From Fodinicurvata sp. EGI_FJ10296 (GTDB taxonomy: Bacteria > Pseudomonadota > Alphaproteobacteria > DSM-16000 > Inquilinaceae): a stretch of DNA of 64,000 bases. The stretch is taken from positions 124,001 to 188,000 of the forward strand of contig NZ_JBFCVL010000007.1 of assembly GCF_040712075.1 (NCBI RefSeq), read 5' to 3'. A model generated the notes under the pieces. It worked only from the letters and a program-made list of their open reading frames with translations, had not been told where the DNA came from and ran no database searches. Shown here one piece after another: positions 47,659 through 63,465 of this stretch. Position numbers and translations under genes: made by a program. Positions within the stretch are counted from its first letter, which is position 1. Every line of letters begins with the position of its first letter.

Positions 47659-48360
47659 TTACCGGCGGCCAAGCGGATAGCGGGCCGTCATGGTGAACGG
47701 GGTCTCGCGATCCGGCTGCTCGTAAATGGCGATCGCATCGATCCACGCCGGCTCCCATAGAACCGGGGCGGCCAGGTCTTCGAGCGTATCGCGGATCAGG
47801 GAATGCTCCGGCTCCTGAAGCCGTGAGGTCAGGGTCATGTGGAACGTGAATTCATCGAAGACGCCGGGGTACCCCCAACGGTCGAGATAGTCGCGCTGAC
47901 GCTCGGTCAGCGGCGACCGCAGCCGCCGCTCTTGATCCTCTGGCGATAGCGGCGCCCGGAACGGCTCGAACATCTCGACACAATCGTCGCACAGGGCCCG
48001 CATTTCCGCGCAAGGTCGACTGAAGACCAGAGCCAGAAACCCGTCCAGCGACTCCAGGACGAGCGGTGGCGACATGAAAGCGGCGCTGTCGGCGGCAAAA
48101 GCCAAAACTTCCCCGTGCAACTGTTCCGCCGTCCGGCCGGGCGCCAGCGAAAACGGCGCCTTCAGGGTGCCGTGAAAGCCGTAGAACCGCGGACTGCGCG
48201 TCAACGCCGCCATCCGGTCCTCGGTAATGCCGGGGACAGTCGGCTGAGGCCGGGTCCGGCCGGTCACGACATCTCGGCCAAGCCAGACCCGCCCCAGATC
48301 GAACAGGGCCGTCTCGGCCGCCGGACCGAAATATATCGCGTATCGGGCATCGCTTGACAT
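47659..48360 (-). CDS. DUF1045 protein, 2H-phosphoesterase-like
   Basis: Member of the DUF1045 family (TIGR03223-like), often named a phosphonate-metabolism protein because of linkage to phn genes. Two HxT motifs of the 2H phosphoesterase fold are present: HGT at residues 63-65 (GFHGTLKAPF) and HMT at 174-176 (FTFHMTLTSR), predicting cyclic phosphodiester hydrolysis. The start giving MSSDARYAIYFGPAAE is the family N-terminus; product 233 residues. No phn genes lie in this window, so the role is unclear. Confidence 0.87.
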   Translation of the reverse strand: MSSDARYAIYFGPAAETALFDLGRVWLGRDVVTGRTRPQPTVPGITEDRMAALTRSPRFYGFHGTLKAPFSLAPGRTAEQLHGEVLAFAADSAAFMSPPLVLESLDGFLALVFSRPCAEMRALCDDCVEMFEPFRAPLSPEDQERRLRSPLTERQRDYLDRWGYPGVFDEFTFHMTLTSRLQEPEHSLIRDTLEDLAAPVLWEPAWIDAIAIYEQPDRETPFTMTARYPLGRR

Positions 48361-48430
48361 GAGTGCCGCCGTTGATCGGTAAGAGGAACGGCGGCGATCA
48401 TTGCGCGAGTGAGGAGCGCCAGGCAAGGGG

Positions 48431-49691: not shown

Positions 49692-50480
49692 ATGTCGATG
49701 TTCCAGCCCCTCTGCAGTGCCTCCCGCAAGGCGACGACGCGCGCCCTGATCGCTGCCGCGGCCCTGCTTGTTACCGCGTCCGCGTCGGCAGAGAACGGCC
49801 CCCTCCTGTCTGAAGACGATTACGCGCTGTTGCGATCCGAGATGGTGGAAAGCATGCGCTATCAGACGCTGGCGCTTGCCCCCGACCTCGGCGGCATTCG
49901 TCTGTCCGATAGCGTACTGGAAGCATTTCAGGTCGTGCCGAGGCACGAATTCGTGCCCGAGGACATCCGCATATATTCCTACTTCGACGCGCCGCTTCCA
50001 GTGGCCGAGGGCGCGACGGTGTCGCAGCCGTTCATTACGGCCTATATGCTCGAACTGCTCGATGTCGGCCCTGACGATGACGTTCTTCAGGCCGCCGTCG
50101 GCGGCGGTTATGAAACCGCGATCCTCTTGCAACTCGCGCGCTCGGTATCGGGGATGGAATTCCATGCGCCCGTCGCCGAGACGGCGGCCGAAACGCTGGC
50201 GGCGCTGGGGTATTCAGCCGACATCCGTCAGGGCGACATATACTATGGCTGGCCGGAAAACCGCCGCTTCGACGCCATACTGGTCCGCATGGCCATGCCC
50301 TATGTGCCCAGCCCGCTGATCGATCAACTCAAGCCCGGAGGGCGCCTGGTCGCCCCGATCGGTCCCGAGGAAGGCCCCCAGGACATGATGCTGATCACCA
50401 AGGAAGAGGATGGCAGGATCCGGCGCCAGCGCGGTCTTGCCGTCCGGTTTCAGCCCCTACCGGGCGGCACGCGGCTATAG
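49692..50480 (+). CDS. Exported protein-L-isoaspartate O-methyltransferase-like protein
   Basis: PCMT-family sequence, normally repairing isoaspartyl residues with S-adenosylmethionine. The 262 residues include PRHEFVPEDIRIYSYFDAPL and TVSQPFITAYMLELL, typical of PCMT. An N-terminal signal peptide (residues 1-33, ALIAAAALLVTASASA before ENG) predicts export to the periplasm, where the methyl donor is not expected. The SAM-binding motif usually written LEIGTGSGY reads LQAAVGGGY. It may therefore be inactive or use its fold for binding. Two closely spaced ATG starts are possible. Confidence 0.82.
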   Translation: MSMFQPLCSASRKATTRALIAAAALLVTASASAENGPLLSEDDYALLRSEMVESMRYQTLALAPDLGGIRLSDSVLEAFQVVPRHEFVPEDIRIYSYFDAPLPVAEGATVSQPFITAYMLELLDVGPDDDVLQAAVGGGYETAILLQLARSVSGMEFHAPVAETAAETLAALGYSADIRQGDIYYGWPENRRFDAILVRMAMPYVPSPLIDQLKPGGRLVAPIGPEEGPQDMMLITKEEDGRIRRQRGLAVRFQPLPGGTRL

Positions 50481-50484
50481 CGCG

Positions 50485-51102
50485 TCAACGCCCCAGTTCG
50501 TCAACGATTTCGGCCGTGTTGGCAACCCTGCAATAGCCCTTGAAGGCGGCGAGCGCATTGTCGTGGCGTTCCCTTGAATCCGTTGTGCAGGCATCGGCGG
50601 CGCAGATCATCCGAAAGCCGCGGTCGGCGCCGTCGCGTATTGTGTGGTCAACGCACTGATCGGTCAGGAAGCCGGCGACGACGACCGTGTCCAGGCCCAT
50701 GTTGCGCAGCAGGTACTCGAAAACCGTCGAGTTGAACAGGCTGGAGGATGACTTCGCGAGCACCATCTCGTCGGCCGCAGGCGCCACCTCGTCGCACGCT
50801 TCGGCCTCCACACTGCCGGGGGCAAAGTGGAAGCCGGTCTGCTTGTAGTCGATGCTCCGGTCCCGGCCGTCCCGGGTCAGACTCTGGATCACCGTATGGA
50901 CGACCTCCGCCCGCGCCGCCCGCGCCGCCGACAACAGTCGAGCCATGTTGGGCACGGCGCGTTCCGCCGCCGAGCGGTGAAACCAGGGGCGATCCTCTGC
51001 CGCTGCGGGAAAGAAGATCCCCTTCTGCACATCGATCAACAGAAGCGCCGTGCCTTCGGGGTCGATCGGCGCCGTGCGGGCGGGAATGGTTCGTCGGGCC
51101 AT
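50485..51102 (-). CDS. Isochorismatase-fold cysteine hydrolase (first paralogue)
   Basis: Amidohydrolase of the isochorismatase/nicotinamidase superfamily, 205 residues. The catalytic triad is Asp24 (LLLIDVQKG), Lys117 (VLAKSSSS) and Cys150 (FLTDQCVDHTIRDGADRGF). It shares long near-identical stretches with the 59234-59947 protein (SLTRDGRDRS versus SLTQDGRDRS; TDQCV; IRDGADRGF versus IRDAADRGF), so the two are paralogues. It is the last gene of the liv-GS-amidohydrolase run, 1 nt after the previous stop. It probably cleaves an amide or carbamoyl bond of an unidentified substrate. Confidence 0.88.
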   Translation of the reverse strand: MARRTIPARTAPIDPEGTALLLIDVQKGIFFPAAAEDRPWFHRSAAERAVPNMARLLSAARAARAEVVHTVIQSLTRDGRDRSIDYKQTGFHFAPGSVEAEACDEVAPAADEMVLAKSSSSLFNSTVFEYLLRNMGLDTVVVAGFLTDQCVDHTIRDGADRGFRMICAADACTTDSRERHDNALAAFKGYCRVANTAEIVDELGR

Positions 51103-51103
51103 G

Positions 51104-51937
51104 TCACGCGCTCCCGTTCCGGCCGTTCTCGTCGCGATCGAAGGTTTCGGCTGCAGCCGTCAGCACGCGTGCGAGCCGATCGGCCCAGCGGGTCTGACCG
51201 CCGGGATCCCCGATGAGATCCTGGCGAATCTCCAACTCGGCATAGGGCAGTCCGCGCTTCTCGCCATGTTCCGGGATCGAATAGTCGTTCGTCATATCGA
51301 CGGTATAGGGCTCGTTCTCACCCAGCACGAAATCGCCCTCCCGGGCCAGGGCCCGCAGGACATGGTGCGAAAACACCCCATGTTCGGCCCAGCACAGGCC
51401 GACATGCCACGGGCGATCGGCAGGACGAGCCTTCAGCGAAGGCGTGAAGCTGTGAACGGCCACCAGCAAGGTCGGGATGCCGGCAGCGGCACGGGCATCG
51501 AGACGGCGCCGGATGGTATCGTGATAAGGGGTCAGGATGGCATCGACCCGTGCCGCCCGGGCAGCGGCGTCGAGATTCTCGTTGCCCGGCACCGGCGTAC
51601 CGTCGGCCACGACGGGCATCGATGCACTGGCGTCGGTCCGCCGGTTGCAGTCGATCACGAGACGCGAATAGCGCTGAAAGACAAGCGGCGCGTCGAGCCT
51701 TGCCGCGAGGCCCTCTGCCACCGGCAGGGCGCCGATATCGATGCCGATATGGCGGCTGAGTTCGGACGCCGGCAAGCCCAGATCATTCAGCGCCGTCGGC
51801 ACGGCGTTGCCGGCATGATCGCAGATCAGAAAGATGCGCGAGCGGGAGTCGGCGTTCATTTCGCCGACCGGCTGCGGATCGCCGGGGCCCAGCAGGCCGG
51901 GGCCGGCGCCCCCGGCGATCTCGGATTGAAAAGACAT
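51104..51937 (-). CDS. N-formylglutamate amidohydrolase-family protein
   Basis: Zinc hydrolase family whose founding member HutG removes formyl from N-formylglutamate. The 277-residue product shows the family pattern: FLICDHAGNAVPTAL, HIGIDIGALPVAEGLAARL, YSRLVIDCNR, VAVHSFTPSL and NEPYTVDMTNDYSI. It is flanked within 12 nt by a glutamine-synthetase-like gene and within 1 nt by a cysteine hydrolase, not by hut genes. A role outside histidine degradation is therefore likely, for example hydrolysis of an N-acyl or gamma-glutamyl intermediate (inference). Confidence 0.88.
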   Translation of the reverse strand: MSFQSEIAGGAGPGLLGPGDPQPVGEMNADSRSRIFLICDHAGNAVPTALNDLGLPASELSRHIGIDIGALPVAEGLAARLDAPLVFQRYSRLVIDCNRRTDASASMPVVADGTPVPGNENLDAAARAARVDAILTPYHDTIRRRLDARAAAGIPTLLVAVHSFTPSLKARPADRPWHVGLCWAEHGVFSHHVLRALAREGDFVLGENEPYTVDMTNDYSIPEHGEKRGLPYAELEIRQDLIGDPGGQTRWADRLARVLTAAAETFDRDENGRNGSA

Positions 51938-51949
51938 TCTACAGGTTCC

Positions 51950-53269
51950 TCAGTAGGCCTCGGCGTAGACCCGGCACAGTTCGTCAGGGCTGCGATCTTC
52001 AAGCATCGATATCTCGCCGCGTTTGTGCATCAGATAAGCCTGGCGCAAGCCTGGGCCGAGCCAGCCACTGGCGACGTCGTCCGTCTCCAGGGCTTCCAGA
52101 GCCTCGGCCAGAGTTCGGGGCAATGCCTGGATGCCCATCGTCTCACGCTCGGCATCTGAAAGATCACCGGGATCTCCGTCGTGTATTGCGGGGGTCGGAA
52201 GCCCTTCTCGCAGTCCCTGAAGCCCGGCAAAAATCAGCATGCCCAGTTGCAGATAGGGGCTGGCGGCAGCATCGGCGGCGCGGAATTCCATGTTGTAGCG
52301 CGGCGCCGGGTCGATGTCGCCGGCTGCCGGCACGGGGCAGATGCGCAAGCCGGCCTCACGGTCACGCAGGCCGAGATTGCCCCAGAAGGCCGACCATGAA
52401 TGGGGCCGCAGGCGATCATACGACACCAGACTGGGGGCCGTGATCGCACAGAGGGCCCGCACATGGCGCAGGATCCCGGCGGCAAAGGCGCCCGCCTTCG
52501 GCGAAAGCCCGCCCACACCCTGTGGATCGTAGGTTACCGACTGTCCGTCGCTGTCCACCAGGCTGCAATGAATATGCACGCCGTTGCCGACACCGCCCCG
52601 CGCGACCAGCGGCGAGAAACTGGCGGTCATTTCGTGACGCTCGGCGACGGCGCGGCACAGCTCGCGCAGTTTGACCGCCCTGTCGGCCGCTTCCAGTCCG
52701 GTCGTCGGGTCAATCGTGATCTCGTATTGCCGGGTGCCATATTCCGGCAGGAAGGTATCCGGCTCCAGCCCGTTCGCCCTGAGCGCGCCGATGAAGTCGC
52801 GGGTGAATCCGGCGATCGATCGCATGGAGCCGAGCCCATAGGAATCCCCGCTTCGGGCGTGAGCCTTGTCGAGATGGAATTCGTGCTCGAAACTGGCCAG
52901 CAAGGACAGCCCGGTCTCCGTTTCCAATGCGGCCAGAGCCCGCTTCAGAAACGATCGCGGACAGCAGTCCCACGGGGTCTCGTCCAGTTCCAGAATATCG
53001 CCCAGATACCATTGCTCGCGCGGGGTGCCGTCGGCGAAATCGAGCAGGACGCGGCCTTCCCTGGCCGGGACCAGGAACAGGTCGCCGCGTGGGCCGAACG
53101 GCGTCGCCGGTATGCCGCCCAGGCAATTGATCATGATATTGGTCGGCGTCCACCCGACGCCGAGACGCCGGCGCTTTTCGAGATCGCGGGCGGGAAAGCC
53201 TTTTCCACGAACCTGACCGGCAATATCGCTGCAGCAGACCAGAATCACTTCTTCGGGCGTGGTTTCCAC
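51950..53269 (-). CDS. Glutamine-synthetase-family ligase (PuuA-like, GTG start)
   Basis: ATP-dependent ligase of the GS fold; related enzymes join glutamate to amines such as putrescine. GTG is chosen because AGGAG stands 8 nt upstream; a frame start 19 codons earlier lies inside a strong hairpin. The 439-residue product has the beta-grasp N-domain (VILVCCSDIAGQVRGKGFPA) and the catalytic LASFEHEFHL. GNGVHIHCSLVDSDGQS and the RPHSWSAFWGNLGLRDREAG arginine loop follow. It lacks the adenylylation-site context of housekeeping GlnA. It sits between livK and the formylglutamate-hydrolase-like gene. Confidence 0.9.
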   Translation of the reverse strand: METTPEEVILVCCSDIAGQVRGKGFPARDLEKRRRLGVGWTPTNIMINCLGGIPATPFGPRGDLFLVPAREGRVLLDFADGTPREQWYLGDILELDETPWDCCPRSFLKRALAALETETGLSLLASFEHEFHLDKAHARSGDSYGLGSMRSIAGFTRDFIGALRANGLEPDTFLPEYGTRQYEITIDPTTGLEAADRAVKLRELCRAVAERHEMTASFSPLVARGGVGNGVHIHCSLVDSDGQSVTYDPQGVGGLSPKAGAFAAGILRHVRALCAITAPSLVSYDRLRPHSWSAFWGNLGLRDREAGLRICPVPAAGDIDPAPRYNMEFRAADAAASPYLQLGMLIFAGLQGLREGLPTPAIHDGDPGDLSDAERETMGIQALPRTLAEALEALETDDVASGWLGPGLRQAYLMHKRGEISMLEDRSPDELCRVYAEAY

Positions 53270-53316
53270 GGTACTGGCTCCTGGAATGAGCTGGGGCGTG
53301 AGGCAGGAGGAAAGCC

Positions 53317-53346
53317 GGGGCGGCACGGGCTTTCCCGTGCCGCCCC
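53317..53346 (-). promoter_or_regulatory. 13-bp perfect hairpin between livK and the GS-like gene
   Basis: GGGGCGGCACGGG and CCCGTGCCGCCCC pair without mismatch around the 4-nt loop CTTT (plus-strand view). It lies 11 nt after the livK stop and about 50 nt before the GS-like start, with no T-run. It could block 3' exonucleases so that livK mRNA is more abundant than the rest, as known for many binding-protein genes, or act as a partial terminator. Confidence 0.65.
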
Positions 53347-53357
53347 GCCATCCGGCG

Positions 53358-54521
53358 TTATTCCGGACGCCAGATTTCCTCGACGTTGAACTCGGCGCCC
53401 TGAACGGAAATGATGGAGACCGGCTTCGGCGGCACCATGGTTTCGCGTGTATAGGAAACGGTGCCCGTTACGGCCGGATAGTCCCGCGTCGCCTCCAGCG
53501 CGTCGCGGACTGCAGCCGGGTCGTCGCTCCCCGCCTCTTCGATTGCGGCGGCGATCAGACCGATCGCGTCATAGCCGAGCGGCGCGAACGAATTCTCCGG
53601 CGGATGACCGAAATGCTCGGTGTAGTCATCAATGAACGCCTGCACCTCGGGCCGGTCGTCGGCCAGATAGGTGTGGGACGAGAAGAAGACGTCATTGGCC
53701 AGTTCCGGCCCCGGTACCGTCGCCACCAGTTCCGTATCGAATCCGTCACCGGAGATGATCGGGAACTCGATGCCGGCTTCGCGGATCTGGCGTACGGTCA
53801 GGCCGGCTTCGCTGGGGATGGCCGAAATGAACACGGCATCCGGTGCAGGGTCGACATCTTCCAGGCGGGCGATCTGGGCCGAGAAATCGGTGTCGCCCAT
53901 CATGAAGAAATCTTCGTCGATGATCTCGCCGCCACGCTCCTGGAACCGTTCGACGAAGAACTGGGTCAGGGCGCGGGTAAAGTCCATCGAGTTATCGGTC
54001 CAGACATAGACCCGGCGAAGCCCCATCGTGTCATAGGCATAGTCGGCGATGGCGTAGGACTGATCGTCATCGCCGAAGGCCGCCATGAACATGTGGTCGC
54101 CCACCCAGGTCGGCAGCATCGGATGCGTGGCACCCGATGTGACGAACGGGATGCCCGCTTCCTGGAAGGTGGGTGCGGCGGCCATCACGAAGGTCGTGTC
54201 CGACTGGCCGAAACCGGCAACGACATCCGACGAGACCGCTTCCTGCGCGGCGGTCGCCGTCACCTGCTGATCGGTGCGCGTGTCGAAGACGACCAGTTCC
54301 AGCGGCCGCCCGAGTACGCCACCTTCTTCGTTGATCTGCTCGACATGCAGTTCGGCGCCCTGCAGCGACGGGCCGTCCAGCGACGACAGACCACCGGTCA
54401 GCGAATAGAGGGCGGCGACGCGGATCGGCTCACCGTCCTGGGCCTGGGCCTGCGATCCGGTCGATGCGAGACCGGCCACGAGCGCGAGCGCCGTGGCGGT
54501 TGTCAGGGTATGCTTGATCAT
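53358..54521 (-). CDS. ABC transporter substrate-binding protein (Leu/Ile/Val type)
   Basis: Periplasmic binding protein of the LivK/type-1 fold, 387 residues. A signal peptide (LTTATALALVAGLASTGSQA, cleavage near residue 28) precedes the mature domain starting EPIRVAALYSLTGGLSSLDG. Family motifs include GAELHVEQINEEGGVLG and a long ligand-binding lobe with GFGQSDTTFVMAAAPTFQEA. Ligand class cannot be fixed; relatives bind amino acids, amides or urea. It follows livM by 20 nt and precedes a stable hairpin and the GS-like gene. Confidence 0.92.
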   Translation of the reverse strand: MIKHTLTTATALALVAGLASTGSQAQAQDGEPIRVAALYSLTGGLSSLDGPSLQGAELHVEQINEEGGVLGRPLELVVFDTRTDQQVTATAAQEAVSSDVVAGFGQSDTTFVMAAAPTFQEAGIPFVTSGATHPMLPTWVGDHMFMAAFGDDDQSYAIADYAYDTMGLRRVYVWTDNSMDFTRALTQFFVERFQERGGEIIDEDFFMMGDTDFSAQIARLEDVDPAPDAVFISAIPSEAGLTVRQIREAGIEFPIISGDGFDTELVATVPGPELANDVFFSSHTYLADDRPEVQAFIDDYTEHFGHPPENSFAPLGYDAIGLIAAAIEEAGSDDPAAVRDALEATRDYPAVTGTVSYTRETMVPPKPVSIISVQGAEFNVEEIWRPE

Positions 54522-54541
54522 GAAAAGCCTCCTTTTCCGTT

Positions 54542-55600
54542 TTATTTTTCAGCCGGCCTGGCCGCCGACGGGGCGCCCTGGTCGGGGAGTTCGGACCTTT
54601 CGGTCCGGGACGCGACAGGTCCGGGTCTCAATATTCGTGGCTCGGAACTGCCGAAGAATCCCTGCGGCCGCAGCAGCAGCGTTGCGATCAGCAATAGCGC
54701 AATGATCACCTGCACAAGTCCATAGGCGCCGACGGCCTGTTCGACCGGCCGCAGCACTTCTCTCAGAACCGTGATCGATACCGCAGCGAGAATCGCGCCG
54801 ACGAGACTGCCGCTGCCGCCGATCACCACCATGACGACCAGCATGAAGGCCATGGTGAGATTGAACGATCCAGGCGTCAGATTGGTCAGGAGATGCGCCC
54901 ACAATGCGCCGCTGATGCCGGCGAAGAAGGCGCCGACGGAAAACGCGGTCAGCTTGGCTCCGGCCCGGTTGACCCCCATACAGGCGGCCGCCATCTCGTT
55001 CTCGCGGATCGCCAGCAAACTGCGTCCGACCGACGAATGCTTCAGACGCCAGCAAACCAGTAGCGTCACCGCCAGCCAGCCGAGGATCCACCAGAGCGAC
55101 GTCATCCGGGGGATGCCGTTCAGTCCAAGGGCGCCGCGCGTCAGGCCGTCAGCATTATTGATCAGCACGCGCAGAATGATGATCAGGCCGAGCGTGGCCA
55201 CTGCCAGATAATGGCCGCGCAGACGCAGCACCGGAAAGCCGACGATCACCGCGGCAAACGCCGCCGCAGCACCGCCGATTACCGTGGCGGGAAACAGCGA
55301 CAGTTCCGCTGTGGCAAGCCATTCCGGCAGCGCGGGTAACATGAAGCCCTTGCGGTTGGCGGGGAATGTCAGGACCGCTGCGACATAGCCCCCCAGCATC
55401 ATGAACGCCGGATGGCCAAGTGAGAAAAGCCCCGTCAGGCCATTGGAAAAACTGAGACTGACGACCAGAATGGCATAGATCCCGGCAAAGCCGATCACTG
55501 TGCGCTCGTACCCACTGAGGAAGGTTTCCGCGAACGCGACCAGCAGCACGGCAGCGGCGGCCAGCACGGCCCAGGCGATCTGGTGACGCTGCGGCTTCAT
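54542..55600 (-). CDS. livM: Branched-chain-type ABC transporter permease LivM
   Basis: Inner-membrane permease of the LivM group, 352 residues with about ten helices. GLTGLFSLGHPAFMMLGGYV and the cytoplasmic EAA-like loop AIRENEMAAACMGVNRAGAK are diagnostic. The ATG overlaps the livH stop (ATGA), so translation is coupled. A longer upstream frame start is unrelated sequence. It pairs with LivH to form the translocation pore for LivG/LivF ATPases. Confidence 0.93.
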   Translation of the reverse strand: MKPQRHQIAWAVLAAAAVLLVAFAETFLSGYERTVIGFAGIYAILVVSLSFSNGLTGLFSLGHPAFMMLGGYVAAVLTFPANRKGFMLPALPEWLATAELSLFPATVIGGAAAAFAAVIVGFPVLRLRGHYLAVATLGLIIILRVLINNADGLTRGALGLNGIPRMTSLWWILGWLAVTLLVCWRLKHSSVGRSLLAIRENEMAAACMGVNRAGAKLTAFSVGAFFAGISGALWAHLLTNLTPGSFNLTMAFMLVVMVVIGGSGSLVGAILAAVSITVLREVLRPVEQAVGAYGLVQVIIALLLIATLLLRPQGFFGSSEPRILRPGPVASRTERSELPDQGAPSAARPAEK

Positions 55601-56493
55601 GCCCGTTCCTCCGAAACCCGGCCCATGATTCCGTTGGGCAGGAACAGCAGGATGACGATCAGCAAACCGAACACGAACGCGTCCCGATAGGATCCGTAGA
55701 TCGGCGGCAACATGCCGACGAACAGCACTTCGGCAAAGCCGAGGATGAAGCCGCCCAGCACGGCACCGGTCAGACTGCCGACACCGCCAATGACGGCCGC
55801 AACGAAGGCTTTCAGTCCCGGAAGGAAGCCCATGAGTGGATCGATCTGTCCGGCGCGTCCGGCCCACATGATGCCCGCAACCCCCGCAAGGGCGCCGCCG
55901 ACGCCAAAGGCCGTCGCGATCGCCCGGTTGATCCGGATGCCCATCAGGCTGGCCGCCAGCGGATTCTCCGCCGTCGCGCGCATGGCCATACCCAGCCGCG
56001 AGCGCTGCACGAACAGCGACAACCCACCCAGAATGACAGCGGTCAGGATGACGATGGTCAGTTCCAGAACCGTCAGCCGCGCGCCGAAGACGTCGATATT
56101 GGTCCGCATCCAGTCTGGCAAGTTGAACGGTCGCGGTTGGCCCGACAGCAACAATATGCCGAGATTCTGCATCAGGATCGAAACGCCGAGCGAGGTGATG
56201 AACCCGTTGACTTGCGGTGCATCGCGCTGCGGGCGAAAAGCCGCCATATCGATCAACATCGCAATCAGGGCGCCGATGATCAGCACCGCGAGCAGTGCCG
56301 TCCAGAGAGGCAGGCCGAACACCGTCAGAATGGCGAAGGCGCTGAACGCGCCGACCATCATCACGTCGCCATGGGCGAAGTTGATCAGCCGAACAATGCC
56401 GTAGATCATCGAGAATCCGACCGCGATCAGGGCGTAGAGCGACCCCAGCACCATGCCGTTGATAAGCTGCTGGAGGACATATCCCGCCGTCAT
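55597..56493 (-). CDS. livH: Branched-chain-type ABC transporter permease LivH
   Basis: Inner-membrane permease, 298 residues and about eight helices. LQQLINGMVLGSLYALIAVG and FSMIYGIVRLINFAHGDVMM are classic LivH signatures, and the EAA-like loop reads MAMRATAENPLAASLMGIRI. It overlaps livF upstream and livM downstream by 4 nt each, showing a tightly packed operon. Confidence 0.94.
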   Translation of the reverse strand: MTAGYVLQQLINGMVLGSLYALIAVGFSMIYGIVRLINFAHGDVMMVGAFSAFAILTVFGLPLWTALLAVLIIGALIAMLIDMAAFRPQRDAPQVNGFITSLGVSILMQNLGILLLSGQPRPFNLPDWMRTNIDVFGARLTVLELTIVILTAVILGGLSLFVQRSRLGMAMRATAENPLAASLMGIRINRAIATAFGVGGALAGVAGIMWAGRAGQIDPLMGFLPGLKAFVAAVIGGVGSLTGAVLGGFILGFAEVLFVGMLPPIYGSYRDAFVFGLLIVILLFLPNGIMGRVSEERA

Positions 56494-57266
56494 GACAGTT
56501 TCGCCCCGTCGGTTTCCGGATCGGTTCGGGCTTCGGATTGAGTAGGAGCGGTCGTCAGCCCCAGATAAGCCTCGCGCACACGCGGATCGTCGGCGAGGTC
56601 GCCGGCCGGTCCGGATAGCTGAATTTCGCCGGTTTCCAGCACATAGGCCCGATCGGCAACGTCCAGCGCCATACTGGCGTTCTGTTCGACCAGCAATACG
56701 GTGGTTCCCTCGTCGCGGATATCGTCGATAACATCGAAGATCGTATCGACCATCTGCGGCGCCAGGCCCAGCGACGGCTCGTCCAGCAGCAACAGCTTCG
56801 GCCGCGACATCATGGCCCGCGCCATGGCCAGCATCATCTGCTCGCCGCCGGAAAGCTGGCCAGCCAGGCCGCCTGCGCGTTCGCTCAGCACTGGAAACAG
56901 CACCATCATGGCGTCGATATCCGCCGCGATTCGGCTGTCGCTGCGCAAATACGCGCCCAGTTTCAGATTCTCCAATACCGTCATGCCGCCAAAAACCTGA
57001 CGGCCTTCCGGGCAGTGGGCGATCCCCGCCGCGACGATATCGCTGGGCTGAAGCCGGGCCAGATCCGATCTGCGGTTGTCGACTGTCAGGCCGATCGTCC
57101 CGCTTCGAGGACGCAATACACCTGAAATAGCCAGCAGCGTCGATGTCTTGCCGGCGCCGTTCGCGCCCAGCAAGGCGACGATTTCACCCTGATCGACATG
57201 CAGGCTGACCTGTCGCAGAACCTGCGAGGCGCCGCGCCAGACATCAAGGCCCTCAAGCGTGAGCAT
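56490..57266 (-). CDS. livF: ABC transporter ATP-binding protein LivF
   Basis: Cytoplasmic ATPase of the Liv system, 258 residues. Walker A is GANGAGKT at residues 34-41. The signature LSGGEQMMLAMARAMMSRPK and Walker B LLLLDEPSLGLAP are intact, followed by the switch histidine replaced in the usual LivF way (LLVEQNASMAL). It overlaps livG by 14 nt and livH by 4 nt. The C-terminal tail is acidic and variable. Confidence 0.94.
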   Translation of the reverse strand: MLTLEGLDVWRGASQVLRQVSLHVDQGEIVALLGANGAGKTSTLLAISGVLRPRSGTIGLTVDNRRSDLARLQPSDIVAAGIAHCPEGRQVFGGMTVLENLKLGAYLRSDSRIAADIDAMMVLFPVLSERAGGLAGQLSGGEQMMLAMARAMMSRPKLLLLDEPSLGLAPQMVDTIFDVIDDIRDEGTTVLLVEQNASMALDVADRAYVLETGEIQLSGPAGDLADDPRVREAYLGLTTAPTQSEARTDPETDGAKLS

Positions 57267-58068
57267 GTCGACGCCCTTTCCGGCTTCGCCGCCCGCTGCC
57301 CAGATAGGCGGCGATTACGTCTTCGTGGCGCTGGATGTCCGCGGGTTTGCCGTCGGCGATCAACAAACCGCGGTTGAGAACCTGAACCCGGCTGCAAAGC
57401 GACATGACGAGCTTCATGTCATGCTCGACCACGATCAGCGTCGGCGCGTCAGCGGCAGAGGCGATGCCGCGCAGCGTCTCGGTCAGGGCCGCAGTCTCCG
57501 ACGGGTTCATCCCGGCCGCCGGCTCGTCCAGCAACAGGACAGTGGGCGCCGTGGCCAGAGCCCGGGCAATCTCGACCTTGCGCTGCAAGCCATAGGGCAG
57601 ATCGCCGGCGCGCCGATCGACGGCGTCGGCCAGTCCGAGATCCGCCAGCAGCGCCGCCGAGCGGTCGCGGATCTCGCCTTCGCGGGCGACGGCGCCGGGC
57701 AATCCCAGTATCGTCGCGAGCCATCCGGGGCCCTGGCGCATGTGCAACCCGACCGCGACATTCTCCCAGACTGTCAGATCCCGAAACAGCCGGATATTCT
57801 GGAACGTCCGGGCGATACCGGCGCTGGCAAACGCCTCGGGACCGACACCGGCCAGATCGGCTCCGGCGAGCCGGATTCGGCCGCCAGTCGGCGCAAGAAC
57901 ACCGGTCAGCAAGTTGAATGCGGTGGTTTTTCCCGCGCCGTTGGGTCCGATCAGACCCAGGACATCGTTGCGCGCCAGATCGAGGCGATAGTCGCTTAAC
58001 GCCGCCAGGCCGCCGAAATGCTTCGACAGATCCTCAACTTCCAGGACAATGAGCCCGTCTGTCGACAT
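57253..58068 (-). CDS. livG: ABC transporter ATP-binding protein LivG
   Basis: Second Liv ATPase, 271 residues. The start is the ATG with GGAGACCGGA just before it, giving MSTDGLIVLEVEDLSKHFGG; an earlier in-frame ATG would sit at the predicted transcript start. Walker A GPNGAGKT is at 41-48, then the Q-loop, signature region DLPYGLQRKVEIARALA, Walker B VLLLDEPAAGMNP and switch VVEHDMKLVM. It is the first gene of the transporter operon, with its own promoter in the 131-nt gap after rpiR. Confidence 0.94.
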   Translation of the reverse strand: MSTDGLIVLEVEDLSKHFGGLAALSDYRLDLARNDVLGLIGPNGAGKTTAFNLLTGVLAPTGGRIRLAGADLAGVGPEAFASAGIARTFQNIRLFRDLTVWENVAVGLHMRQGPGWLATILGLPGAVAREGEIRDRSAALLADLGLADAVDRRAGDLPYGLQRKVEIARALATAPTVLLLDEPAAGMNPSETAALTETLRGIASAADAPTLIVVEHDMKLVMSLCSRVQVLNRGLLIADGKPADIQRHEDVIAAYLGSGRRSRKGRRHAHA

Positions 58069-58138
58069 TCCGGTCTCCGGGAAATGGCAACCGATTGCGC
58101 AAAGGCGGGAACTGGCGCCCCTATCCTTCATGATCTAA

Positions 58139-58167
58139 ACGTTACAGAATGCGTTCCAGAAGATCAA
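58139..58167 (-). promoter_or_regulatory. Candidate livG operon promoter with shared motif
   Basis: On the minus strand TTGATC and TAACGT lie 17 nt apart, about 70 nt before livG. The -10 box overlaps GCATTCTGTAACG (58140-58152), which recurs as GCATTCTGTAATG upstream of the divergent hydrolase gene at 59234. The shared sequence covers the same position relative to the -10 in both, suggesting common control, most simply by the RpiR protein. Confidence 0.5.
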
Positions 58168-58199
58168 TCCGGAATAATTCGAACAACCCGGATGGCCGC

Positions 58200-59090
58200 T
58201 CAGAGATCGCCGGAATCGTCGCTGTCCGCACCCGGAAGCAGCGTGTCGCGGTAGGATTCGATGACCTCGATCCGGCCTCTGGCGTTCGACCAGATCCGTT
58301 CGTCGAAGGCCTGGGCGATGACCTCGACCAGCGTGATCATGCCGACCAGACTGTCCCAACGGGACGGGCCGTCGACCCGGGCGCGGAACGCCATGTCAGC
58401 GGATTCCGCCGCATCCGACATCCATTGATCGGTAAACAGGACGGTTTTCGCCCCTCTTGCCTTTGCCAGCGCGACCGTGGTCACGGTCTCGCGCTGATAC
58501 CGGCGTATATCGAAGGCGATCAGCACGTCGCGCCGCCGCAGGTCGGTCAGGATATCGGCCCGCCGGACCAGATCGTGGCCGACCAGGCGCACGCGCGGGC
58601 GCATCTTTCTGAGATGGAACTCCAGGTGACGGGCCGCCATTTCGGTAAAATCGCCGCCGAGAACATAGATATCCCGGCGTTCGTCGCACAGCAGTTCGAG
58701 TAATCGGTCGATTTCCGAACGCTGGCACATGGAAACCGTATCGGTGACGGTCGCGACGAGCCGGTCGCCCAGAGCCGTGAAACCCGAAGCGTGGCTATCG
58801 GCTTCCGGCGGCCGGGTCAGGGGGTATTCCGCCTGCGCTTCAACCTCGTCGCGCAGGGCCCGGCGAAAATCGGCATAGCCGTCAAAACCGAGTTTGCCGA
58901 TGAAGCGCAGCACCGTCGGCCCGCTGACGCCGGCGCGTTCGGCGAACAAACCGACCGTATCCAGGCCGGTTGTCGGATAGCGGGCCAGCAGCGCCCGCGC
59001 TGCCCGCCGCTCTGCGTTGGTCAGCGAGGGCATGCTCGCCTTGATACGATCCATCAGTGTGGGTTGGTGTTGGCTTTCCGTGCTCGCCAC
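58200..59090 (-). CDS. RpiR/MurR family transcriptional regulator
   Basis: Regulator with an N-terminal helix-turn-helix domain (about 1-80; LTNAERRAARALLARYP and AERAGVSGPTVLRFIGKLGF) and a C-terminal SIS domain (about 125-260; RDIYVLGGDFTEMAARHLEF). SIS domains usually bind phosphosugars, but RpiR proteins also control amino-acid and amine uptake. The product has 296 residues. It lies between the liv operon and the divergent hydrolase gene, and palindromes are present in the divergent gap, so both units are probable targets. Confidence 0.92.
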   Translation of the reverse strand: MASTESQHQPTLMDRIKASMPSLTNAERRAARALLARYPTTGLDTVGLFAERAGVSGPTVLRFIGKLGFDGYADFRRALRDEVEAQAEYPLTRPPEADSHASGFTALGDRLVATVTDTVSMCQRSEIDRLLELLCDERRDIYVLGGDFTEMAARHLEFHLRKMRPRVRLVGHDLVRRADILTDLRRRDVLIAFDIRRYQRETVTTVALAKARGAKTVLFTDQWMSDAAESADMAFRARVDGPSRWDSLVGMITLVEVIAQAFDERIWSNARGRIEVIESYRDTLLPGADSDDSGDL

Positions 59091-59146
59091 GCCCGTCCTC
59101 CCCCGGTTCCGGCCCCGGCCCCGACCCCAGATCGGGCCGATCGTCG

Positions 59147-59193
59147 ATCGTTACGATATTGCCCTGATTCTTGCATTCTGTAATGCTCATTAC
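59147..59193. promoter_or_regulatory. Divergent promoter region with two palindromes
   Basis: Between rpiR and the hydrolase gene are ATCGT-T-ACGAT (59147-59157) and GTAAT-GCTC-ATTAC (59180-59193). The second overlaps a likely -10 (TAATGC), 16 nt after TTGCCC, and continues the GCATTCTGTAATG motif shared with the livG promoter. They are good candidates for RpiR operators. Confidence 0.5.
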
Positions 59194-59233
59194 GAGGGTC
59201 GAATCCCGATCCTGAAAGCCTGGAGCCGAAACC

Positions 59234-59947
59234 ATGTCAGCATTGGACACCCCTGCCGACCTTCCCGCAATTGACGCGCCCAGAGGTGCGTACCGGGAAC
59301 GACCCATCGACCCGGCACGAACAGCGCTGCTGTCGATCGACATGCAGAACGCCGAATACAGTGCCGAAAGGCTGAAGCGCGCAGAGGCCGGAGACGCTGC
59401 CGAAGCGCCATATGCGGAGTTCCTGGACCGAGTCGATCGGGTCGTGCTGCCCAACCAGCGCCGCCTGCAGACAGCCGCGCGGGCCAGGGGCATCGAAGTC
59501 ATCTATACGGTCATCGAAAGCCTGACCCAGGATGGCCGCGACCGCAGTCTCGACCACAAGATCTCCAGACTGCACCACCCCAAGGGCTCGTGGGAAGCGC
59601 AGGTGATCGACGCAGTCGGCCCCACCGGCGACGACATCGTCATTCCGAAAACGTCTTCGGGAATTTTCAATTCCACGAATATCGAGTATGTGCTGCGCAA
59701 TCTGGGCATCGACTTCCTGATCGTCTATGGCGTGATGACCGACCAATGCGTGGAATCGGCCATACGCGACGCGGCCGATCGCGGCTTTCTCGTCACACAG
59801 ATCGACGATGCCTGCGCTGCGGAGACCTCGACCGGCCACGACCAGTCTATCAGGGCGATGAAGGGCCATTTCTGCCGCACCAGGACCACGTCCGAAATGA
59901 TCGCCGAAATCGAGGCGCTGCCGGCAGTGGAAAGGCGACGTCTTTGA
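59234..59947 (+). CDS. Isochorismatase-fold cysteine hydrolase (second paralogue)
   Basis: Cysteine amidohydrolase of 237 residues with catalytic Asp36 (LLSIDMQNAEY), Lys139 (VIPKTSSG) and Cys172 (GVMTDQCVESAIRDAADRGF). Compared with the 50485-51102 paralogue it has a 12-residue longer N-terminus and an insertion around ERLKRAEAGDAAEAPYAEF, so substrate specificity may differ. It is divergent from rpiR and converges on the TRAP genes. The promoter motif shared with livG ties it to the liv-GS operon. Confidence 0.9.
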   Translation: MSALDTPADLPAIDAPRGAYRERPIDPARTALLSIDMQNAEYSAERLKRAEAGDAAEAPYAEFLDRVDRVVLPNQRRLQTAARARGIEVIYTVIESLTQDGRDRSLDHKISRLHHPKGSWEAQVIDAVGPTGDDIVIPKTSSGIFNSTNIEYVLRNLGIDFLIVYGVMTDQCVESAIRDAADRGFLVTQIDDACAAETSTGHDQSIRAMKGHFCRTRTTSEMIAEIEALPAVERRRL

Positions 59948-59971: not shown

Positions 59972-61546
59972 TCAGAAAAGGACCGACGGCAGCCATGTGG
60001 CCAGCGCCGGGAACGCCGCCACGCCGATCAGCGCCACGATCTGAATGGCAATGAACGGCATGACGCCGCGATAGATGTCGCTGGTCCTGACCGACGCTGG
60101 CGCCACGCCCCGCAAATAGAACAGCGCGAATCCGAACGGCGGCGTCAGGAACGATGTCTGCAGATTGAGGGCGATCATGATGCCGAGCCAGATCGGGTCG
60201 ACTCCCATGATCATCAGAGCCGGCGCTACGAGCGGCACCACGACCAGCGTTATCTCGATGAAATCCAGGAAAAACCCGAGAACGAAGATCGTGGCCATGA
60301 CGACGATCATGGCACCGGTCACGCCGCCGGGCAGGCCTTCGAGCAGAGCGCGAATGGTTTCGTCCCCGCCCAGTCCGCGAAAAACCACGGCAAAAAGGGC
60401 GGCACCGATGAGGATCGCGAACACCATGGCGGTCAGCTCCGCCGTGTTGCGCATCACCGGCTGGAGCACGTCGGAACGGATGGTCGCCCGGATCGCTTCG
60501 GCGATGGCGGCCGCCGCCAGAACGGTCAGCAGAACCGCCGCGCCGATCGCGATACCCTCTCCCACCGAAAATTCCGACCGGGTAACCCTCAGGTCGAACA
60601 GCACTGTCAGCGCAACGAGGCCGACAAGACTGGTCACGCCGAGCCTCAACAGCCCCCGTCTGGCACCGTCAGACTGCAGCCCCGCGAGAAGGAGCGCACC
60701 GACCGCACCGACGCTCGCGGCCTCTGTCGGGGTGGCGATGCCGCCGAGGATCGACCCCAGAACGGCAAAGATAAGGGCGATCGGCGGCACCAGAGCCGAG
60801 AATAGATACCGCCAGATGCGTCCGACGGAGGCAGCCGGAATATCGTCCGGGGAAAGCGCGGGCATCGCCGCCGGGCGCAGCCACGCGGTCAGGATCTGAT
60901 AAACCAGGTAGAGCCCGACGAGACAGAGGCCGGGTATCAGGGCGCCCGCGAACAGGTCGCCCACGGCGATTGTTTCCGGCGAAAAAATGCCCTGATCCAG
61001 TTGAGCCTGCTGATAGGACGAGGCCAAAACGTCGCCAAGCAGGATAAGCACGATCGACGGCGGTATGATCTGCCCCAGCGTGCCCGCCGCCGAGATGGTG
61101 CCGGCGGCAAGGGCCGGATCATAGCGATGGCGCAGCATCGTGGGCAGCGCCATCAGCCCCATGGTGACGACCGTCGCGCCAACGATGCCCGTCGATGCCG
61201 CCATCAACGCACCCACGATACACACCGAGATTCCCAGGCCGCCCCTGAGGCGCCCGAACAACAGTGTCATTGATTCCAGGAGCTGTTCGGCGACCTTCGA
61301 GCGTTCCAGCAGCACGCCCATTGCAATGAACAGCGGAACGGCGATCAGGACCTGATTGGTCATCGTCCCGAAGATGCGTTGTGGAAATGCGCCCAGGATC
61401 GACAGATTGAATACGCCGAACGCGCTGCCGATCAGCGCGAACAGCAGACTGACCCCGGCCAGAGTGAACGCCACGGGAAAGCCGATCAGGATCGCGGCGC
61501 ACAGCGTCGCGAACATCAAAAGGTCCAGAATCTCGTTTACGGCCAT
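59972..61546 (-). CDS. dctM: TRAP transporter large permease (DctM family)
   Basis: Main sodium-coupled permease of a tripartite ATP-independent periplasmic transporter. The 524 residues give about 12-14 helices. Signatures include LLFGRLRGGLGISVCIVGAL and SAAGTLGQIIPPSIVLILLG, with FVLGFFLDFIEITLVVVPLV in the C-terminal half. It is longer than the usual 425 residues because of an added membrane segment in the middle (about 225-350), as in the larger DctM group. It starts 10 nt after the small permease stop. Confidence 0.93.
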   Translation of the reverse strand: MAVNEILDLLMFATLCAAILIGFPVAFTLAGVSLLFALIGSAFGVFNLSILGAFPQRIFGTMTNQVLIAVPLFIAMGVLLERSKVAEQLLESMTLLFGRLRGGLGISVCIVGALMAASTGIVGATVVTMGLMALPTMLRHRYDPALAAGTISAAGTLGQIIPPSIVLILLGDVLASSYQQAQLDQGIFSPETIAVGDLFAGALIPGLCLVGLYLVYQILTAWLRPAAMPALSPDDIPAASVGRIWRYLFSALVPPIALIFAVLGSILGGIATPTEAASVGAVGALLLAGLQSDGARRGLLRLGVTSLVGLVALTVLFDLRVTRSEFSVGEGIAIGAAVLLTVLAAAAIAEAIRATIRSDVLQPVMRNTAELTAMVFAILIGAALFAVVFRGLGGDETIRALLEGLPGGVTGAMIVVMATIFVLGFFLDFIEITLVVVPLVAPALMIMGVDPIWLGIMIALNLQTSFLTPPFGFALFYLRGVAPASVRTSDIYRGVMPFIAIQIVALIGVAAFPALATWLPSVLF

Positions 61547-61556
61547 CGAACGTTAC

Positions 61557-62087
61557 TCATCCGCCGGCGGAATAGGTGTCGTCCATGGGCCGGCCTGTCA
61601 GATGGGCGGCCGCGCGCACGGCCATGACGATACCCTGGGCGAACAGGGTAGCGGCAAACACCAGAATGAACGTTTTCAGCAGGAAAATGGCCGGCAGACC
61701 GCTGGTTTCCCGCGATCCTTCCAGGACCGCCCAGGACCGCGCGACATAGGGAAACCCCAACCACCAGACAAGCGCGCAGGTCGGCAGCAGCAGGAACAGC
61801 GCCCCGAAAAGGTCGATCGCGGCCTTTCGCCGGGGCGGGGCCTCACCGTAGAAGATATCGACGCGAACATGCTTGTCGACCGCCAGGGTGTACGCGGCGG
61901 CAGCCATGAACAGAATGCCGTGCATGTAGATCACGGATTCGAACATGTACAGCGATCCGACGCCGAAGACATAACGCAGGACGACGATCGCAAACTGGAC
62001 GAGCACCATGGCCAGCACCAACCACATGGCGGCAAGGCCCAGATATGTGTTCGCCCGCTCGATGAATCGACAGATTGAAAAGATCAC
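61557..62087 (-). CDS. dctQ: TRAP transporter small permease (DctQ family)
   Basis: Four-helix small membrane subunit, 176 residues, that scaffolds DctM. Helices start with WLVLAMVLVQFAIVVLRYVF; the family-typical LYMFESVIYMHGILFMAAAAYTL region and VDKHVRVDIFYG are present. The start is a GTG without a clear ribosome site, so the true start could be a few codons later. It follows the binding-protein gene by 113 nt and precedes dctM by 10 nt. Confidence 0.9.
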   Translation of the reverse strand: MIFSICRFIERANTYLGLAAMWLVLAMVLVQFAIVVLRYVFGVGSLYMFESVIYMHGILFMAAAAYTLAVDKHVRVDIFYGEAPPRRKAAIDLFGALFLLLPTCALVWWLGFPYVARSWAVLEGSRETSGLPAIFLLKTFILVFAATLFAQGIVMAVRAAAHLTGRPMDDTYSAGG

Positions 62088-62200
62088 GAAGAACTGTCCG
62101 GCATGCGCGTCGGGCTTGTGCGGTAATGGAGGGAGCGTCGTTGCTCAGCAGGATGAAGCCCGGCCCCGCGGCAAAGGCAGCGCGACCGAGCGGCGGGACC

Positions 62201-63301
62201 CTAGCGCGGGAACGGTATATCGAGCAACCGTGTTGCGGCGAAGGACTGCTCGCCGATGGCGGCCCAGCGTACGGCACTTTCACGGAACGAGGCCAGGGAG
62301 TCGACGATCCGGCCCGTCATCTCGTCGTTTTCGGCGACTTCTCCCACAACCTCGGCACTGGCTTCGGCCAGGGCGCGGGTGATGTCGTCGGGCCATTCGC
62401 GGAGCTGAACGTCATGTTCGTTGATCAGGACATCGAGCGCCCGGATGTTCTGCTGATTGAACTCTGCCGTCACGATGTTGTTCTCGGCGTCCGCAGCGGC
62501 GCGAACAATCATTTGCAGGTCACTCGGCAGTTCCTCGAATTTCGCCTTGTCGACGGTAATTTCCGTCGCGGCACTGGGCTCGATCATGCTCGGCCCATAG
62601 TAGAACTTGTTGACGCGGTGCAATCCGAGCGCCAGATCGTTCCATGGCCCCACCCACTCGGCGGCGTCGAGCGTTCCGGCGTCGAGCGCCTGATAGATCT
62701 CGCCGCCCGGCAGCGTCTGCACATTCATCCCAACGCGGCGCCACACTTCGCCACCCAGACCGGCAGTACGGAACGACAGCCCCTGGATGTCGTCCAGGCT
62801 CGACAATTCGTTCGGGAACCAGCCGCCCATCTGGATCGAGGTATTGCCGCTCATGAAGCCCTTGAGGCCGTAGCCGTCATAGAACTCGTCCCAGAGTTCC
62901 TGCCCGCCGCCCCAGCGGATCCAGGCATCGTGTTCGCCTACCGTCAGTGCATAGGGCGCGGAGGTAAAGAAGTTGAATGCCGGTGAGCGCCCCTGCCAGT
63001 AATAGGGAGTGCCGTGAAACAGATCTGCCGTACCGCCGGTCACGGCGTCGAACGCCTCGAAGGCCGGGACCAGTTCTCCGGCGCCGTAGACGTTGATCGT
63101 CAGCCGGCCGCCGCTCATCTCCGTCACGCGCTGGGCAAACCGCGCGGCGCCCGTCCCCAGGCCGGGGAATCCGGCCGGCCACGTGGTCACCATGGTCCAT
63201 TCACGGCTCTCCTGGGCGATCGCAGGGGCCGGAAAGCTGCTGGCAGCAGCCGCGCCGCCAATTGCGCCCGTGGTCGCGGAGATGAAGGAACGGCGTTTCA
63301 T
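62201..63301 (-). CDS. dctP: TRAP transporter substrate-binding protein (DctP family, Tat signal)
   Basis: Periplasmic binding protein of 366 residues. The start is the ATG giving MKRRSFISATTGAIGGAAAA, a twin-arginine signal with cleavage after AIA at residue 29; the longer frame upstream would bury it. The mature protein has the DctP pattern WTMVTTWPAGFPGLGTGAAR and FHGTPYYWQGRSPAFNFFTS, then GGEIYQALDAGTLDAAEWVG with the conserved carboxylate-binding Trp/Arg region. This resembles the subgroup for mannitol/chloroaromatic or 2-oxo acids, often Tat-exported. It leads the TRAP gene set. Confidence 0.92.
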   Translation of the reverse strand: MKRRSFISATTGAIGGAAAASSFPAPAIAQESREWTMVTTWPAGFPGLGTGAARFAQRVTEMSGGRLTINVYGAGELVPAFEAFDAVTGGTADLFHGTPYYWQGRSPAFNFFTSAPYALTVGEHDAWIRWGGGQELWDEFYDGYGLKGFMSGNTSIQMGGWFPNELSSLDDIQGLSFRTAGLGGEVWRRVGMNVQTLPGGEIYQALDAGTLDAAEWVGPWNDLALGLHRVNKFYYGPSMIEPSAATEITVDKAKFEELPSDLQMIVRAAADAENNIVTAEFNQQNIRALDVLINEHDVQLREWPDDITRALAEASAEVVGEVAENDEMTGRIVDSLASFRESAVRWAAIGEQSFAATRLLDIPFPR

Positions 63302-63465
63302 GTTGCGTCTCCCATTCAGGTTTCTGATTTGGCGCCCCGCCCGCTGATGCGCACGGGCCGATGCATTTATCGGCAACGGAGCCCGAGAGTGCCAACATTG
63401 GCAAATCCTCGTGCCCCTTTGCGCGCATTATTGTCGCCGTCGCCTGGTTATGCAACCGATCCCGC

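Follow-up and report, generated by a model that had tools for sequence, protein, structure and literature searches.

A 64,000-nucleotide stretch of the genome of Fodinicurvata sp. EGI_FJ10296 (contig NZ_JBFCVL010000007.1, positions 124,001 to 188,000; hereafter the window) contains, at 50485-59947, ten genes that encode a Liv-type ABC importer, a glutamine synthetase (GS)-like ligase, a hydrolase of the N-formylglutamate amidohydrolase (FGase) family, two cysteine hydrolases (CH1 and CH2) and an RpiR-family regulator. The cluster is a real and widely conserved bacterial operon, and the reading that we favour, with moderate confidence, is that it is controlled by RpiR and scavenges, via gamma-glutamyl tagging, a small amine with an additional amide, lactam or carbamoyl group. 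No published description of this exact gene set was found in literature searches.

Conservation of the gene cluster

The identical ten-gene order is present in Salinarimonas rosea, a Geminicoccaceae metagenome-assembled genome and one more alphaproteobacterium (L004, L005 and L071, loci found with the FGase), and the recurrence of the same genes in the same order in S. rosea and two further genomes indicates that the arrangement is not due to chance. Two Aureimonas species (L007 and L009) exhibit nearly the same order, with the RpiR gene at the opposite end, and a partial copy of the cluster lies on a short contig (L006). On annotated plasmids, the same enzymes occur in Nitratireductor, Sulfitobacter, Sinorhizobium, Shinella, Ensifer, Maritalea and strain NT-25 beside a Liv importer; on those of Pantoea and Klebsiella, an APC permease takes its place. 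The gene set occurs in Alphaproteobacteria and in Pseudomonas-like bacteria, as well as on rhizobial megaplasmids and plasmids of Klebsiella.

The GS protein was used as the sole query, which returned 35 loci at a sequence identity of at least 40%, and neighbours were counted within about 9 kb. A cysteine hydrolase is encoded at 30 of these loci, an FGase at 25, both at 24 and a racemase-like protein at nine, and an iron-type alcohol dehydrogenase (iron-ADH) at none of the 35. An earlier note on the window had reasoned that homologous neighbourhoods in which these genes do not travel together would speak against a single system; the neighbourhood comparison did not refute that proposal. When loci were selected with the FGase, such a GS was found at only 3 of 19, which rules out that proximity to a GS is a general habit of FGase genes. 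The inter-cluster distances of the GS, FGase, cysteine hydrolase and RpiR proteins are correlated (r 0.54-0.85, uncorrected for the species tree).

FGase-family genes were also observed on 45 Klebsiella plasmid records. The Klebsiella plasmids L101 and L102 encode a racemase-like protein, an APC permease, GS, RpiR, FGase and a cysteine hydrolase, with insertion sequence elements close by; this is a plasmid-borne catabolic operon in a genus known from the gut and the clinic. A Deinococcus plasmid (L093) and a Rhizobium plasmid (L094) encode a binding protein 40-43% identical to that of the window alongside Liv genes and a cyclase-family gene, and the Deinococcus locus additionally possesses a GS and an amidohydrolase; these two loci possibly represent a related pathway with other hydrolases. 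An amidohydrolase-like gene lies beside the GS or FGase at L132, L135, L136, L158, L160 and L162, at times where no cysteine hydrolase was found. The L132 copy belongs to Amidohydro_2 (PF04909), and the fungal protein FluG pairs a GS domain with an amidohydrolase domain.

Identity of the ligase and hydrolases

The GS-like ligase (51950..53326 on the minus strand, with an alternative start at 53269; PF00120, E 3e-70) is proposed to be a gamma-glutamyl-amine synthetase. Its closest solved relative by PDB match is PA5508 from Pseudomonas aeruginosa (4hpp, E 1.5e-101), and the metal-site residues E147, E149, E195, E202, H251 and E347 are invariant in the alignment. In true glutamine synthetases, the Glu of the flap sequence PGYEAP is an ammonium-site residue. 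This Glu aligns with a Trp in both the window ligase (PHSWSA) and 4hpp (PHHWSA), a replacement that speaks against a true glutamine synthetase, and sequence comparison supports an enzyme of the gamma-glutamyl-amine type. Amine-ligating GS-like enzymes are established in PuuA, GlnA4 and NpaA1. All 25 of the cluster ligases compared, the PA5508 relative among them, have the acceptor-site Trp, whereas two ligases of the ethanolamine (Eto) type possess a Phe, suggesting that the ligases of the clusters have a common kind of acceptor that is neither ammonia nor ethanolamine. The best NCBIfam model for the ligase is gamma-glutamylputrescine synthetase (PuuA), at 274.4 bits against a curated cut-off of 650, which rules out assignment to the putrescine (Puu) pathway.

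The two cysteine hydrolases, CH1 (50485..51102, minus strand; PF00857, E 6.5e-37) and CH2 (59234..59947, plus strand; PF00857, E 1.4e-34), are isochorismatase-family enzymes, CH1 being of the amidase type, and account for two of the five isochorismatase genes in the 4.83-Mb genome. A model of CH2 (predicted local distance difference test, pLDDT, 92) is nearest in fold to 3kl2, followed by triuret hydrolase, RutB and biuret hydrolase, and the amide and carbamoyl hydrolases among the fold matches are TrtA, RutB, BiuH and N-carbamoylsarcosine amidohydrolase. CH1 and CH2 have the fold of biuret hydrolase, RutB and triuret hydrolase in common, together with the Asp-Lys-Cys triad, which is retained in the alignment as Asp36, Lys139 and Cys172. 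However, they exhibit only about 20-29% identity to the matched structures, possess an extra near-invariant stretch, SLTxDGRDRSxDxK, and score far below the equivalog cut-offs for BiuH (66.6 bits for CH1 and 70.3 for CH2, against 370) and RutB (54.7 and 73.6, against 377.95).

The FGase-family protein (51104..51937, minus strand; PF05013, E 2e-42) is a zinc-type hydrolase that is proposed to act on gamma-glutamyl bonds. Its model (pLDDT 93) has strong fold matches to 2odf (Atu2144, the best) and 2q7s, and weak matches to carboxypeptidases and the poly-gamma-glutamate hydrolases 5onj and 3a9l. Against the model for HutG N-formylglutamate deformylase it scores 18.6 bits, where the curated cut-off is 278.75, and a Hut assignment is thereby ruled out. 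Both of the exclusions made in the earlier note, that of the Puu pathway and that of histidine degradation, agree with these scores.

Substrate class and proposed pathway

A clue to the substrate comes from sister clusters, many of which encode a class III pyridoxal phosphate-dependent protein that is closest to alpha-amino-epsilon-caprolactam (ACL) racemase (2zuk; E 1.8e-149 for Shinella and 3.8e-116 for Klebsiella) and is also near amino acid amide racemase (6gio), with amino acid epimerases and aminotransferases far behind. In a survey of 385 alphaproteobacterial genomes, 8 of 12 racemase-like genes adjoin a GS and/or FGase gene. Amino acid amides, in addition to the lactam, are substrates of ACL racemase (PMC7431475). 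Given that a racemase-like protein is encoded in many sister clusters, an amino acid amide or an alpha-amino lactam is the best guess for the substrate, although a tentative one. The window cluster and its close syntenic relatives lack a gene of this kind, and the cluster may therefore use one enantiomer only, or a related compound. At L129 (11680-14724), the racemase-like gene is followed by one for a PRK06148-family protein, about 1000 residues long, whose C-terminal domain resembles an aminotransferase, and open reading frames of similar size lie near the GS at L134, L141 and L142.

We infer the reactions, their order and the substrate class as follows. A small amine would be imported by the Liv-type ABC transporter, and the GS-like ligase would use ATP to couple the gamma-carboxyl of glutamate to the amine. 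CH1 and/or CH2 would then cleave the amide, carbamoyl or lactam bond of the tagged intermediate to yield ammonia or an opened ring, and the FGase would take off the glutamyl tag to release glutamate and an ordinary amino acid. Because the ligase and the FGase by themselves would form a futile cycle, a cysteine hydrolase probably catalyses the step that separates them. The earlier note had proposed import, gamma-glutamylation and subsequent hydrolysis; the single uptake-and-catabolism unit and the outline of its chemistry are retained here, with the cysteine hydrolases now placed between the two other enzymes. If a cysteine hydrolase does act on a glutamate-tagged amide, this would be a gamma-glutamyl pathway with hydrolysis, not oxidation, as its middle chemistry, and it would allow direct tests of what amino acid amide racemases do in nature and of what PA5508 acts on.

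Several observations weigh against this pathway. A cysteine hydrolase is missing from five of the 35 GS loci and a nearby FGase from ten, some of them on short contigs, and L136, L158 and L162 possess an Amidohydro_2-like protein with no cysteine hydrolase detected. The clue to the substrate stems from sister clusters and not from the window cluster: a racemase ortholog is absent from the window genome (best 36%) and from eight relatives, syntenic or near, in which no match exceeds 40% identity. In addition, the preference of PA5508 for bulky over linear amines, as reported in a passage of PMC6478659 citing Ladner 2012, is not by itself a pointer to amides.

That preference would suit catabolism or detoxification of a bulky monoamine, in which an aromatic or other bulky amine is glutamylated and the cysteine hydrolases act beforehand or on a side product. 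Among solved ligases PA5508 is the closest, and its orthologs lie within RpiR-CH-GS-FGase-APC clusters, but the window cluster contains no oxygenase, amine oxidase or aldehyde dehydrogenase, and the constant pairing of GS and cysteine hydrolase and the racemase-like gene would be left unexplained, so that we consider this explanation doubtful. Use of a ureido or carbamoyl amine, such as a carbamoyl-amino acid, is slightly less probable still. The cysteine hydrolases would strip the carbamoyl group in the manner of BiuH, RutB and N-carbamoylsarcosine hydrolase, with glutamylation serving as protection, and the nearest characterised folds do all cut carbamoyl or ureido bonds, while BiuH and RutB are the best NCBIfam models despite scores far below cut-off. 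The racemase-like genes of sister clusters, however, favour amino acid amides over ureides, and the cluster has no hydantoinase, uracil or urea genes.

It is very unlikely that the cluster represents a Puu or Eto pathway with some genes missing, even though the best NCBIfam score of the ligase is to gamma-glutamylputrescine synthetase and Eto clusters likewise possess RpiR, FGase and GS. That score is 274 bits against 650, the cluster has no PuuB, PuuC, PuuD or dehydrogenase genes, and exact synteny across several genera indicates that nothing has recently been lost from it; the absent dehydrogenases and the presence of a Trp in place of the Eto-type Phe tell against an Eto pathway minus genes. 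Least probable of all is a mere adjacency of two unrelated units, an amino-acid importer and a hydrolase/ligase set with no common substrate. The enzymes are indeed paired with an APC permease instead of an ABC importer in Klebsiella, Pantoea and PA5508-type loci, but in the window the genes overlap, the same ten-gene order recurs in several genera, and both regulatory gaps hold the same candidate operator. Scavenging of an amine with an amide, lactam or carbamoyl group remains our preferred reading.

Organization, regulation and importer

Profile matches to each family confirmed every gene and family named in the earlier note. The operon runs on the minus strand from livG to CH1, its last gene. 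The genes for the LivG ATPase (57253..58131; PF00005 and PF12399), the LivF/UrtE-like LivF ATPase (56490..57266; PF00005), the LivH permease (55597..56493; PF02653, E 1.6e-46), the LivM permease (54542..55600, with its start at 55600; PF02653) and a periplasmic binding protein of the LivJ/HAAT type (53358..54521; PF13458, E 5e-64) precede those of the ligase, FGase and CH1. The spacing given in the earlier note holds for the overlaps, which are 14, 4 and 4 nt, whereas the gaps are 20, 31, 12 and 1 nt, and its 88-nt gap appears only with the GTG start of the GS gene at 53269. The RpiR-family regulator (58200..59090, minus strand; SIS, PF01380, and HTH_6, PF01418) is encoded 68 nt upstream of livG. 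CH2 diverges from this gene and is 44% identical to CH1, in keeping with the second paralogous hydrolase described earlier. The borders of the cluster are sharp, since the flanking genes are convergent on both sides: a PCMT-family gene ends at 50480 beyond CH1, and a TRAP DctM gene ends at 59972 beyond CH2.

In the 4.83-Mb genome there are exactly two copies of the 13-bp sequence GCATTCTGTAAYG, against about 0.3 exact sites predicted by simple arithmetic for a genome of this size. One copy lies upstream of livG (GCATTCTGTAACG, 58140..58152, minus strand) and the second lies between rpiR and CH2 (GCATTCTGTAATG, 59173..59185, plus strand), where it forms the core of the inverted repeat GCATT-CTGT-AATGC. 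Related GCAWTYCTGTA sequences are present in the same gaps of L004, L071, L007 and L009, and GCATTCTGTAAYG is a candidate operator of the cluster. Scans for consensus promoters and terminators yielded nothing above shuffles.

Against E. coli-type cut-offs, LivG scores 252 of 362, LivF 229 of 441, LivH 209 of 379 and LivM 141 of 366. The importer belongs to the same superfamily as the branched-chain amino acid transporter proper, a membership that does not imply a branched-chain amino acid substrate. The binding protein retains S/T and D at positions aligned with those that hold the amino acid head group in LivJ-type proteins. No APC permease was matched in the 64-kb window.

Among the neighbouring genes, a TRAP transporter (DctM, DctQ and DctP, 59972-63376) ends convergently against CH2, and a DUF1045 protein (PF06299, E 2e-52) is encoded at 47659-48426, a family that occurs in phosphonate gene neighbourhoods. 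Outside the window, the same genome has two divergent GS-family genes beside a class III aminotransferase (G000 contig C4:289194-293682), a possible polyamine locus separate from this cluster.

Comparison with known systems

The nearest characterised pathway is the Eto ethanolamine pathway, which serves as a template for the window cluster. The Eto operon of Phaeobacter MED193 comprises RpiR, a gamma-glutamylglycine amidohydrolase, a TRAP transporter, an ethanolamine gamma-glutamylase and two dehydrogenases; phosphorylethanolamine acts as its inducer, and ethanolamine is the ligand of its binding protein (PMC10132767). Both systems place RpiR, an FGase-family hydrolase, a GS-like ligase and an importer of their own in a single operon, but Eto has a TRAP importer, two dehydrogenases and a ligase with Phe, whereas the window cluster has a Liv ABC importer, cysteine hydrolases and a ligase with Trp. 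The Eto-type loci L016, L079 and L108 encode iron-ADH and aldehyde dehydrogenase (ALDH) and no cysteine hydrolase; neither iron-ADH nor ALDH has a match in the window or among the ten cluster genes. For Streptomyces, the amidohydrolase step has been predicted, with an assignment to the formylglutamate amidohydrolase family (PMC6529630). The Puu pathway likewise opens with a gamma-glutamyl-amine ligase, as is proposed for the window cluster, but PuuB, PuuC and PuuD have no counterpart in the cluster and its ligase falls far below the PuuA cut-off.

The core enzymes find their closest parallel around PA5508, also named PauA7, the ligase with the solved structure 4HPP. Relatives of PA5508 exhibit the gene order RpiR-CH-GS-FGase-APC permease, and the PA5508-like loci L146, L148 and L149 unite RpiR, a cysteine hydrolase, a GS-like ligase and an FGase as in the window. 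The L149 ligase, the tested ortholog of PA5508, possesses the same acceptor-site Trp as the window ligase. In FluG, a fungal developmental protein, the GS half can be replaced by PA5508 (PMC6478659), and the substrate of PA5508 therefore matters for FluG too. The system, which the earlier note called possibly uncharacterised, is not wholly so, since its core is of the PA5506-PA5510 type and is chemically parallel to the Eto pathway. The PA5506-PA5510 type has an APC-type permease and one cysteine hydrolase, whereas the window cluster has a Liv ABC importer and two, and the window cluster belongs with this type by its core enzymes and not by its transporter.

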